From a virus, in IMG/VR virus record IMGVR_UViG_3300048837_002000, positions 1 to 34,568 of that record: a DNA stretch of 34,568 nt. One strand, given 5' to 3'. A program made the translations under genes and the position numbers. Below are positions 5,225 to 11,809 of this stretch, in pieces (the first letter of the stretch is position 1; the number at the start of each line of letters is the position of its first letter). The notes under the pieces were generated by a model. That model did no database searches. It had not been told where the DNA came from and saw nothing but the letters and a program-made list of their open reading frames with translations.

Positions 5225-6965
5225 TGGTAGTCTCCCTGTGTTTTTCTATAATTTGATTCGAATAAAGAATTACGCTATCGCCACGGATCTGGCCGGTGAG
5301 CTTCAGCTCTTCACGGAAAACGAACTGTAAAGAATTCAGTATGTCACCGGCCCAGGCCAGCAGCTCTGCATCGTTCAGGCGGGTCAGGCGATGCACCCAG
5401 AGCATGGCGGCTTCGACTGTTTCGAAAGCCTGCGGAGGAACCAGAGACGTTGTTTCTACAGCCCGGGCCGGGTTGGGGAAACGCAGGACCTTTGACTCAG
5501 GTTCGGGCGGCAGCGTATCCTCATACAGAATCTGGCGCGCCAGCTGCTTGCCACGGATGCGGGCCTCATCGCGGTTGATGGCGCCCTGGGACTGCGGGTT
5601 GGATTTGATGTCCGTGAAGCTGTGCTCGCGGATATCAACCAGCGGAGCGATCGTGCCGTCGGGTAGTTCCGCCACGTAACGCCGCTCTTCCCCCTGGCGG
5701 ATGGCCGGCATGTAGATGGCAATCTTCTGGCCGATGATGGTTTCCGAATGCGATACGAAGTAGCGGTTGCTATCGATCTGGACCTCTCCGAAATTGCTGA
5801 CCACGCGCGTGAAATTGGACACCAGTGCGTCCTGGATGTTCTGCTCCGTGATGCGCCGGACGGGACGCTCTTTGATGGCGCGCTGCCATTTGTCATAGAA
5901 GCCGCGCTTGCGACAGATGTGCGAGGACCAGGCCTGCAAGAAGTAGTTCAACTGGTTGATGTCCTTGATGGTGTTGCGGTTCAGGATGGATTCTGGCCCG
6001 CGTTTGGAGGCACCGATGCGGCTTTCCACGAGGCCCTTGGCTGAGGGGTTGCCTGGTGTGTGTGTCTCGATGTGCGCACCCAGCCGACCCATGAAGCGGG
6101 CGATGAGGCTCGATCCGCCGATGCCCGAACCACGGTCCGCGAAGAGGATGTCCGGGACGCCCTCGATGGGGCAATCATGCAGGGGTGCCTGGCGACCTTC
6201 GAGCGGAGAAGGCAATTCGCGCTTGGGCAAAAGGCAGAGCTTGAGAAAGGTCAGCCAGTCCTGGGCGTTCTCGCCACCCATGCGGGCACCGTCCGTGGTG
6301 GGCTCGGGAGCGAAGGCGCGCACCAGATAGGAGCGGCTGTACATATCGACCAGGTAGTAGACCCAGATCTTGTAGAGCTTTTCGCGGGCCAATAGATCCG
6401 CGGCATGGGTGTCGCCGCGCGGCAGATCATAGGGCACGATCTTGCCATCGAGGCGCAGGTAGTAATGATTGAGGGGAGTGGCATCGACCACGAAGACATG
6501 GCCGGGGTAGTCGGCAGTCAGGTGCCAGGCGGCAGAGCGCAGGCCGGTCGATTTGCGGTTGAGGCCTTCGCGGCGCAGGATGCGGTTCATGCGCACCAGG
6601 CCGGCGGAGTCGGAATAGAGGCCCCGGGGCAGGAGGCCCATATTCTCTGCTACCATGATCAAGTGTTCAGTGGATCCATAATGGCCCTGGTAGAGGCCAG
6701 CGATGGTCAGAGCGTGGTCGCGCTCGAGGGCGAGCTGGCCCTGGCTCTTGCGCGTCTTGCGCCGGACCCGGCCGGCAGCCAGGTCAACAGGAGAATGACC
6801 GCGTTTCAGAAGCCCAATCTTCCGATACGCGGCTGACAGGGAGAGCCCGCAGAGGTCTGCGAATTCGCGCAGAATGCGGGACCGCTCCGTGCGGCTGCCG
6901 GCCTTCCCATGGCGTTCTGTAAAGGATAACAGAACAGCCATATCTATGGATCTACCTCTTGCCAT
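5205..6965 (-). CDS. muA: MuA-like DDE transposase
   Basis: The enzyme cuts and joins phage ends to target DNA for integration and replicative transposition. The 586-aa protein has an N-terminal helical DNA-binding part (about 1-60). The RNase H-like core has Asp161 (VFVVDATPL), Asp277 (ILFADRGSG) and Glu314 (AKGLVESRIG). LVDMYSRSY (about 205-213) is the conserved strand between them. A Mu-type beta-barrel region follows (about 400-480). Length is slightly below Mu A (663 aa). It lies 7 bp after the 300-aa gene and overlaps muB. Confidence 0.92.
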   Translation of the reverse strand: MARGRSIDMAVLLSFTERHGKAGSRTERSRILREFADLCGLSLSAAYRKIGLLKRGHSPVDLAAGRVRRKTRKSQGQLALERDHALTIAGLYQGHYGSTEHLIMVAENMGLLPRGLYSDSAGLVRMNRILRREGLNRKSTGLRSAAWHLTADYPGHVFVVDATPLNHYYLRLDGKIVPYDLPRGDTHAADLLAREKLYKIWVYYLVDMYSRSYLVRAFAPEPTTDGARMGGENAQDWLTFLKLCLLPKRELPSPLEGRQAPLHDCPIEGVPDILFADRGSGIGGSSLIARFMGRLGAHIETHTPGNPSAKGLVESRIGASKRGPESILNRNTIKDINQLNYFLQAWSSHICRKRGFYDKWQRAIKERPVRRITEQNIQDALVSNFTRVVSNFGEVQIDSNRYFVSHSETIIGQKIAIYMPAIRQGEERRYVAELPDGTIAPLVDIREHSFTDIKSNPQSQGAINRDEARIRGKQLARQILYEDTLPPEPESKVLRFPNPARAVETTSLVPPQAFETVEAAMLWVHRLTRLNDAELLAWAGDILNSLQFVFREELKLTGQIRGDSVILYSNQIIEKHRETTNEATVH

Positions 6966-10617: not shown

Positions 10618-10772
10618 CTTGGCCCTCCGGCGAGTATCGCCTCAAGGAGCGCGACACGACGTTGAATACATGCGATCTCTCTGTAGAGGTCCAGGGCTTC
10701 TTCTCTCCTCAGATCCGCTATATTCTGTGCCAGCCATTCGATCTTCAAAAGCAGTCCCTCTCTAGAAATCAT
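10614..10772 (-). CDS. Small helical protein (52 aa)
   Basis: The start at 10772 is chosen because it overlaps the stop of the HTH gene (ATGA) and GAGGTG lies 5 bases upstream. A start at 10799 would overlap that gene by 31 bp. The product is one long amphipathic helix (IEWLAQNIADLRREEALDL, then IACIQRRVALLEAIL) and may form a coiled-coil dimer. Function is unknown. Confidence 0.5.
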   Translation of the reverse strand: MISREGLLLKIEWLAQNIADLRREEALDLYREIACIQRRVALLEAILAGGPR

Positions 10773-11065
10773 CTTGGCCACCTCCTGAGCAGCGGCCACA
10801 GCCGGAGCACATCAGCATCACTGAGTTCCAGATCCCGTTGGATGCGCTGGACGATCCACGCCACCTGTCGCCGCCCGTTGATTGCATCGCTGAGTCGCTG
10901 GTAATCTATTTCCAGCCTCTGAGCCGCCCGCGTCAGGTTTCCGTATTTAGCGGTGACCATTCTTTTTATTGCGCCCATGTCGGTCGGCTCAATGCGCCGC
11001 CACAGCTCCACGCCGCTCTTCCCGGACTGCACCAGAGCCTCCATTTTTTCTGCCGTTGCTGCCAT
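10769..11065 (-). CDS. Small HTH protein, possible Cro/Ner-type regulator
   Basis: The 98-aa protein contains YGNLTRAAQRLEIDYQRLSD (about 41-60), which fits a helix-turn-helix with recognition helix DYQRLSDAING. A following segment (QVAWIVQRIQRDLELSDADVLRLW) is helical. It lies near the start of the early operon, as Ner or Cro do, and so may damp repressor or early transcription. A good ribosome site (GAGGAG, 7 bases before ATG) is present. The 157-bp leader before it holds the tRNA-like element. Confidence 0.6.
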   Translation of the reverse strand: MAATAEKMEALVQSGKSGVELWRRIEPTDMGAIKRMVTAKYGNLTRAAQRLEIDYQRLSDAINGRRQVAWIVQRIQRDLELSDADVLRLWPLLRRWPR

Positions 11066-11168
11066 TGGTTCTCCTCGTTCTATTCTAAATTCTAAAGTAT
11101 TGCAAAATGCCTGTTAACGTCCGGCCGACGATCCTGCCATCAGGCTCATGCCACACGAGTGGCCGGGA

Positions 11169-11214
11169 TGGGCGCAGTCGGGATTCGAACCCGATGGACC
11201 TCCGCAGGCTGCGC
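11169..11214 (-). ncRNA. tRNA-like minihelix (acceptor stem, T arm and CCA)
   Basis: The minus strand reads GCGCAG (11214-11209), a small hairpin CCT-GCGG-AGG, TCCA, then a perfect T arm TCGGG-TTCGAAT-CCCGA (11194-11178), CTGCGC (11177-11172) and CCA (11171-11169). The first and last hexamers pair fully. The T loop TTCGAAT is canonical. There is no D arm or anticodon arm, and no fit to a full tRNA was found further upstream. It lies between the first early gene and the HTH gene, so it is probably transcribed. It may be a tRNA remnant or a functional tRNA-like structure. Confidence 0.5.
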
Positions 11215-11222
11215 TTTGCATG

Positions 11223-11741
11223 TCAGGCCGCTGCCCGCAGTTCCAGACGCTGGCGCAGCAGACGCAGCCACTGGGAACGGACGCGCTTGCCGCTCTTGGT
11301 ACTGAGTCTTACGATGCGATGGTTCTCGAAGAGGGTGAAGGCCAGATTGAGGTCGGCGATTTCCTGCGCGCTCAGGCGGGCACAAACGGCCAGAGCTTCC
11401 TCATTGTTGCTCAGGCCGGCGTAGAGGTTGTGTCCGATTTCCTGCCCGCGCGCGATGGCGGCTTCCAGCTCCCGGACGGCTGCTGCTGTATCGTCCGCGT
11501 ATTCCTGCCAGTCGGCCAGCGGAGCAGTCCGGCCGGGTTTCTTAACCTGACGGTAGCGGTTGATGTCCCGGGCCCGGCCAGCGTGGTTGGCGGTCAGAGC
11601 ATGACACTCCTGGATCAGGAATTCCCGATCCAGCCGCGCCTGGGCTGCGCTCACCAGCTTGGCCAGCTTGAGTTGCTCTTTTCCGTTCAGCTGCTGCAGG
11701 TTGGCCTGCAGCCAGTCGATTTGTTCTTTGAATGTTTCCAT
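11223..11741 (-). CDS. First early protein, unknown function
   Basis: The 172-aa protein is almost entirely helical (FKEQIDWLQANLQQLNGKEQ; AAVRELEAAIARGQEIGHNL). The C-terminus is basic (TKSGKRVRSQWLRLLRQRLE), suggesting nucleic-acid contact. It is the first gene after the strong early promoter, with AGGGGA 7 bases before ATG. As the first product of derepression it could be a regulator or take-over protein; no family is recognised. Confidence 0.6.
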   Translation of the reverse strand: METFKEQIDWLQANLQQLNGKEQLKLAKLVSAAQARLDREFLIQECHALTANHAGRARDINRYRQVKKPGRTAPLADWQEYADDTAAAVRELEAAIARGQEIGHNLYAGLSNNEEALAVCARLSAQEIADLNLAFTLFENHRIVRLSTKSGKRVRSQWLRLLRQRLELRAAA

Positions 11742-11777
11742 GTGATGGTCCCCTTTTAGTACTTGCCTTTTTTTGCG

Positions 11778-11802
11778 CCCGAGGCCAACTGTTGGCCTCG
11801 GG
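11778..11802. promoter_or_regulatory. Perfect 12-bp inverted repeat at the early transcript start
   Basis: CCCGAGGCCAAC (11778-11789) is mirrored by GTTGGCCTCGGG (11791-11802) around one central base. The predicted early transcript would begin at about 11803, so its first 25 bases would fold into this hairpin. It is not followed by a T tract on either strand, so it is not a normal terminator. It may be a repressor or Cro operator, or a 5' hairpin protecting the mRNA. Confidence 0.6.
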
Positions 11803-11809
11803 TAGTATT

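Follow-up and report, generated by a model that had tools for sequence, protein, structure and literature searches.

We found that a tRNA-like minihelix in a transposable phage of the B3/Mu kind heads a 105-nt RNA block lying between the first and second early genes of that phage. The whole 34,568-base virus record (IMGVR_UViG_3300048837_002000) was analysed and is called the window here. The block (11110–11214, minus strand) is identical at 101 of 105 positions to a stretch of a spirochaete prophage (L003:3674–3778) and is very likely a conserved functional RNA. On present evidence there is about an even chance that this structured RNA of the early polycistronic transcript is read by tRNA-processing enzymes and separates the messages on either side of it. 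Minihelices of similar build occur in other phages, and one of these carries an array of about ten with strong covariation.

Read on the minus strand from 11214 to 11169, the minihelix consists of GCGCAG, CCTGCGGAGGTCCA, TCGGG TTCGAAT CCCGA, CTGCGC and CCA. The 5′ acceptor strand GCGCAG (11209–11214) pairs with the 3′ strand CTGCGC (11172–11177), the T arm TCGGG-TTCGAAT-CCCGA occupies 11178–11194 and is invariant in L003, and the place of the D and anticodon arms is taken by a 14-nt linker (11195–11208). RNA folding (MFE −18.2 kcal/mol) gives the acceptor stem, a perfect T arm and, within the linker, a mini hairpin of 3 bp, CCU-GCGG-AGG, whose loop contains GG; linkers of this kind are also seen in other phage minihelices. 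The fold thus returns exactly the stems given in a preliminary description of this DNA, including the tiny hairpin of the linker. Because the folding energy is ordinary relative to shuffles (z −1.0), it is not used as evidence. When the window was dinucleotide-shuffled 600 times, 1% of the shuffled sequences contained a T arm and 6-bp acceptor joined by a short linker. ARAGORN reports no tRNA at the minihelix, and Rfam at its gathering threshold assigns no family there. With permissive settings, the only relevant sub-threshold match is to mascRNA-menRNA, which aligns end to end at 26.6 bits against a cut-off of 42.5.

Compared with a tRNA, the minihelix retains the T arm and the acceptor stem, with an acceptor of 6 rather than 7 bp and an acceptor/T stack of 11 rather than 12 bp; there is no cloverleaf with an anticodon arm, only the 14-nt linker. 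The preliminary description had also seen an encoded CCA. Those letters follow the stem immediately, with no discriminator base in between, and in the tRNA register positions 11168–11171 read N73-CAT (CCAT here, ACAT in L003), which leaves the minihelix without an RCCA end. An encoded CCA is also absent from most tRNAs of the L003 host and of a second spirochaete. Because the CCA is not conserved, is out of register and is mostly missing from host tRNAs, this part of the description falls. The appeal to CCA-adding enzyme goes unsupported as well, as the two phages differ at the base concerned (C in the window, A in L003).

The window phage encodes a transposase that matches phrog_2610 (E 9e-123) and a MuB-like ATPase, and Pseudomonas phage B3 and its relatives are distant matches. 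The early region runs along the minus strand in the order promoter, gene 1, minihelix and small HTH Ner-like gene. The probable early promoter, TTGACA-18-TATAAT (11839–11810), matches the sigma-70-type consensus at 12 of 12 positions and lies about 590 nt upstream of the minihelix. Gene 1 (11223–11741, minus strand) encodes a 172-aa protein that has no significant family in Pfam and a 46% identical homologue at the same place in L003, and the minihelix begins 9 nt past its stop codon. The next gene (10769–11065, minus strand) encodes a small HTH (Ner-like) regulator, which has weak HTH matches, is 71% identical in L003 and has homologues in L012 and L020. The element therefore sits between two early genes and not in the 5′ leader, where it had been placed before. 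Searches of viral contigs with the gene-1 or Ner-like protein found no relatives. A long palindrome, GCCCGAGGCCAACTGTTGGCCTCGGGT, is present at 11777–11803, beside the early promoter and between the repressor and gene 1, and is likely an operator. Near the left end of the record are two adjacent DNA methyltransferase-like genes (538–1551 and 1732–2484, minus).

Among the relatives found, L003, a prophage within a Spirochaetales genome, is the closest; its transposase is 69–70% identical, and it has the same gene order and the same element, likewise 9 nt past the gene-1 stop codon and upstream of the Ner-like gene. When the two early regions are aligned, the minihelix proves to be only the first 43 nt of the block, which ends at 11110, and that conservation extends 60 nt beyond the tRNA-like part. 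The block is the best-conserved 105-nt window of the aligned regions (0.962, against 0.886 for the next, which is coding, and a mean of 0.593), and its conserved start coincides exactly with the first acceptor base. Two of the four differences fall in a single pair of a downstream hairpin, one in the linker, and one changes CCA to ACA. The downstream hairpin, GCCAC-TCGT-GTGGC (11150–11163, minus strand), begins 8 nt beyond the minihelix stem and reads GGCAC-TCGT-GTGCC in L003, a C–G to G–C double change that preserves pairing. Two further hairpins are predicted on the same strand, CCTG-ATGG-CAGG (11133–11144) and CGTC-GGCCG-GACG (11118–11130), both invariant in L003. The acceptor and T stems are identical in the window and L003, the only two known homologues, and thus have no covariation of their own. 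The compensatory changes that the preliminary description had named as a check on these stems are hence neither confirmed nor refuted by them; they do appear in the next hairpin and are abundant in the minihelices of another phage (L157). Because the block is the most conserved stretch, starts at the acceptor base and carries a compensatory change in its hairpin, we regard it as a conserved RNA element and not a decaying remnant.

Strong matches to a covariance model built on the block occur in the window and L003 only. No further homologues were found in the viral_contigs set or the INPHARED phages, nor, setting aside G001, in the 30 genomes of the order and 393 genomes of the phylum that were searched. 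The relatives L002, L013, L014 and L020–L022 and the named B3-like phages show no such minihelix, with some of these contigs ending before the leader. Immediately outside the block, both phages have GCAAA before and UUUGC after it, with different spacing (ATGCAAA-block-CATTTTGCA in the window and GGCAAAC-block-CTTTGCA in L003). These flanks could close the whole block like a leader–trailer helix, which we offer as a lead and not as a result. A leader–trailer interaction is reportedly among the findings for MALAT1. The near-complete conservation of the 3′ half would suggest a further ligand or partner, or a tertiary fold. Other accounts of the block were tried and rejected. An encoded peptide, MSLMAGSSAGR, lacks a ribosome-binding site, and the identity extends to third codon positions; a second promoter at the block's 3′ end, TTAACA-17-TAGAAT, has a different spacing in L003; and repeats of the block elsewhere in the window phage are not clearly above chance.

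By its build, the element appears to be one of a wider group of phage RNA modules that combine an acceptor stem, a D-arm-like GG mini hairpin and a T arm, lack an anticodon arm and usually have a hairpin after them. An IMG/VR scan for GCAG-N-T-arm-CTGC returned at least 120 records, which total 1.08 Mb and are thus preselected for the T-arm pattern. About half of the matches listed are ordinary tRNAs, and the 63 non-tRNA matches among those listed include 32 with perfect T stems. This enrichment was not accepted as evidence, because tRNA fragments at att sites would produce it too, and evidence for the class was limited to tests of the acceptor, mini hairpin, downstream hairpin and covariation. 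A strict scan (T arm of 5 pairs, acceptor of at least 6 pairs, linker of 7–22 nt, fixed acceptor sequence dropped) of the 1.08 Mb, drawn from records among the matches listed, found 29 minihelices, 28 of them outside ARAGORN tRNAs, against 0.0 per set in ten dinucleotide shuffles; 17 of the 29 do not match the initial search pattern. The only strict minihelix in 135 kb of bacterial chromosomal loci is the L003 copy, and 162 kb of named phages contain none that satisfies the strict definition.

The window and L003 elements pass the same scan (T arm, acceptor of at least 6 bp, linker of 7–22 nt, no ARAGORN tRNA) and join the 28 in a set of 30 from 16 records, in which copies from the same record are not independent. 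GG is present in 29 of the 30 linkers. A mini hairpin with GG in its loop can form in 19 of them, compared with a shuffled mean of 2.1 (maximum 7), and the window linker CCT-GCGG-AGG is of this kind. In tRNA, GG is what the D loop supplies for docking with the T loop, and the GG loop of the phage minihelices may dock in the same manner. A hairpin of at least 5 Watson–Crick pairs follows within about 25 nt in 19 of the 30 (4.4 for shuffled sequence, with a maximum of 9, and 5.9 for sites picked at random in those records), or in 11 of 16 when one minihelix is counted per record; in the window this hairpin is GCCAC-TCGT-GTGGC. By a crude gene call, which wrongly places the window and L003 elements within a spurious antisense ORF, 20 of the 30 elements are intergenic and the next gene is co-stranded in 24. 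No Rfam family claims the class minihelices. Beyond the T loop, the window element has no clear sequence similarity to the other phage minihelices, and convergence is possible. A joint MAFFT alignment of minihelices from different phages was left out of the pair counts because it shifted the acceptor register.

The best example of the class is L157, a 180-kb viral record (IMGVR_UViG_2529292852_000001) with nine exact copies of GGCACGYAYGGTT...GTTCRANYC, all on one strand and seven of them within 1.9 kb; a reversed-pattern control found none. About ten anticodon-less minihelices, several followed by a hairpin, form an array in a mostly gene-free stretch of this record (L157:10851–12879, minus strand). 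An alignment of ten copies had 99.4% paired cells, and 8 of the 16 pairs had changed on both sides, in 20 such cells. This covariation was reached by 0 of 500 shuffles and was destroyed by sliding the partner 1–3 columns. Rfam at its gathering threshold names none of these minihelices and has a few short tRNA matches elsewhere in the record. A HEARO RNA is located a few kb from the array.

Related or comparable elements are found in further phages. Prochlorococcus phage P-SSP7 has an unannotated related element at 603–647, with a 5-bp acceptor and a 6-bp T stem, in its left-end region upstream of the first annotated gene at 1079. A near relative, likewise with a hairpin downstream, is present in L152. 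Also unannotated in P-SSP7 (L214, 1–2500), at about 1020–1060, is a second perfect T arm, GAGAGG-TTCAATT-CCTCTC, and then a hairpin, a short distance upstream of the first annotated gene. L012, a spirochaete B3-like prophage with a 46% identical transposase, has a different 77-nt tRNA-like element (5897–5973, minus strand) between two early genes, beginning 19 nt past a stop codon. Its acceptor has 8 bp, a T arm is present, and the arm at the anticodon position ends in a non-decoding loop, AGAAAGA, without U33; the element folds better than 98% of shuffles and has a tRNA-Sec match below threshold. In L097, L164 and L204, a minihelix, a small hairpin, a purine-rich ribosome-binding site and a start codon follow in close succession, a layout that may suggest a 5′ UTR role in those phages.

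The element more likely marks a site of RNA processing than the remains of a dead tRNA. A signal that separates messages or frees a small RNA would fit its position next to a stop codon, the start of the block at the acceptor base and the intergenic recurrence of such elements. We infer cleavage, the enzymes involved and the effect on gene expression as follows. Host tRNA-processing enzymes would read the acceptor/T-arm stack and the elbow, RNase P would cut before G11214 (the predicted +1 position), 8 nt after the gene-1 stop codon, and RNase Z might cut after base 73. Cleavage would then separate the gene-1 message from the downstream Ner/transposition message, and the product would be a structured 5′ end or a stable RNA of about 105 nt. 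Bacterial RNase P favours an RCCA end, and the weak points of the processing reading are the 6-bp acceptor, the missing RCCA and the few relatives that carry the element. In addition, near-perfect identity over 105 nt exceeds what a processing signal alone needs. In vitro, bacterial RNase P accepts hairpins made up of no more than an acceptor stem and a T stem-loop (PMC11143913). RNase P also cuts phage C4 RNA (PMC5320573), and tRNA-like structures such as mascRNA are cut by RNase P and RNase Z (PMC4919922). We tentatively favour processing by RNase P and RNase Z as the main role of the element, at somewhat less than even confidence.

Of the roles proposed in the preliminary description, both a processing signal and a cis regulator gain support from the conservation, the compensatory change in the adjacent hairpin and the similar elements in other phages. 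As a cis regulator of the Ner-like gene, the block would work uncleaved, as a switch in the 5′ UTR to which a tRNA-handling protein (SerRS, EF-Tu or TruB/TrmA) or a phage protein binds, and would control translation or attenuation. The block does lie in the Ner-like 5′ UTR and ends 44 nt before the start codon, its near-complete 3′-half conservation suggests a specific ligand or a tertiary fold, and the minihelices of L097, L164 and L204 shortly precede a ribosome-binding site and start codon. However, the downstream hairpins leave the ribosome-binding site uncovered, the spacer to the start codon is not conserved and no antisense target is common to both phages, and we consider both regulation by binding and control of translation or attenuation doubtful. 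A released stable RNA acting in trans, which would titrate tRNA-handling or tRNA-cutting enzymes, such as defence nucleases that hold on to the acceptor and T arm, or pair with a target, has precedents in the RNase P-processed C4 antisense RNA (PMC5320573) and in Cas12a3, which engages the acceptor stem, T arm and CCA (PMC12851939). A role that depends on dosage would be in keeping with the tandem array of about ten copies that one phage carries, but the window has a single copy with no encoded CCA and no match to Rfam C4, and such an RNA is unlikely here. Antisense targets were sought in the early and repressor transcripts and rejected, none of at least 9 pairs being common to both phages.

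The remaining explanations deny that the element is an RNA signal. The minihelix might be a tRNA 3′-end fragment, either an att-site copy or a host tRNA remnant, whose acceptor stem was completed by a chance upstream complement. Among the matches listed, 15 of the 32 perfect non-tRNA T arms in viral contigs do lack a good acceptor, as att-site fragments predict, and 31 of 37 bases in one part of the element agree with the V arm and T arm of tRNA-Ser(UGA) of other spirochaetes. This phage, however, is of the transposase/MuB-like ATPase type, with no integrase noted among the subset of its ORFs searched; the L003 host genome has neither a second copy nor a tRNA with this 3′ half; and the conserved sequence extends 60 nt beyond the tRNA-like part, where a hairpin shows a compensatory change. 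A fragment is quite improbable on these grounds, and the suggestion that the element is only a tRNA remnant is further disfavoured by its place in the best-conserved early stretch. As for an origin from tRNA-Ser, a model of the block matches tRNA-Ser(UGA) of two other spirochaetes at 27.5 bits, and a decoy model with an unrelated linker reaches 26.8 on tRNAs; because the decoy scores nearly as high, descent from tRNA-Ser is not established. The very high nucleotide identity and inverted repeats such as TGCCATGAGCCTGATGGCA could alternatively mark a DNA site for transposase, repressor or a host factor, with palindromes that merely resemble RNA hairpins. We hold this to be very improbable: the block is unrepeated in the phage, whereas binding sites usually repeat; the canonical T loop and its G53–C61 closure are RNA features; and the compensatory pair preserves the hairpin while breaking the alternative palindrome in the window.

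In animals (mascRNA), organelles and plant viruses, RNAs that resemble tRNA and are cut by tRNA enzymes are well known, and in mitochondrial tRNA punctuation the mRNAs are separated by tRNA-processing enzymes at intergenic tRNA shapes. By analogy, the way the phage element works may most resemble mascRNA and tRNA punctuation. It shares with mascRNA/menRNA (RF01684, in MALAT1 and MEN-beta) an acceptor stem, a mini D-like hairpin, a T arm and the lack of a normal anticodon arm, and mascRNA/menRNA likewise sits just behind a longer transcript, where RNase P and RNase Z cut (PMC4919922), a step that is presumed in the phage. In contrast, mascRNA/menRNA belongs to animal nuclear lncRNAs and has an additional small hairpin in the anticodon position, and the scores of 26.6 and 25.4 bits do not reach the RF01684 cut-off of 42.5. 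Plant t-elements are tRNA-like shapes between genes at which tRNA-processing enzymes separate messages (PMC4919922); these systems differ in operating in organelles, with a protein-only RNase P in plants, and no phage counterpart was found in the literature searched. The C4 antisense RNA of P1/P7 and the C4-like sRNAs are phage immunity-region RNAs of similar size, and host RNase P is described as freeing C4 from a longer RNA by a cut at the 5′ base of a stem (PMC5320573). C4 folds into three stem-loops and carries antisense loops. No target was found for the window block, the C4 covariance model gave no match at the gathering threshold or at E up to 10, and no syntenic C4-type pairing of at least 9 pairs is present in both phages. 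The bacterial RNase P model substrates (PMC11143913) are synthetic, with a 7-bp acceptor and a 3′ RCCA, compared with 6 bp and no CCA in register here.

Our open-access literature searches turned up no account of anticodon-less tRNA-like elements between phage genes, and no phage class of tRNA-like RNAs cut by tRNA enzymes in Rfam or the papers searched. This novelty is provisional because subscription journals lay outside the search. It is possible, and we propose it with some reserve, that unrelated phages carry unrecognised anticodon-less tRNA-like RNAs, singly or in tandem, at which host tRNA enzymes cut transcripts into messages and small hairpin RNAs. If true, this would amount to tRNA punctuation without tRNAs. 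The idea is testable in P-SSP7, a well-studied cultured cyanophage with a closely similar element. Should the class be real, many RNA-processing sites go unseen in current phage annotation, since tRNA finders rely on an anticodon arm; the members of the class would also serve as minimal substrates of natural origin for RNase P, RNase Z, CCA-adding enzyme and elbow-binding proteins, and would provide a simple rule for the division of polycistronic phage transcripts.
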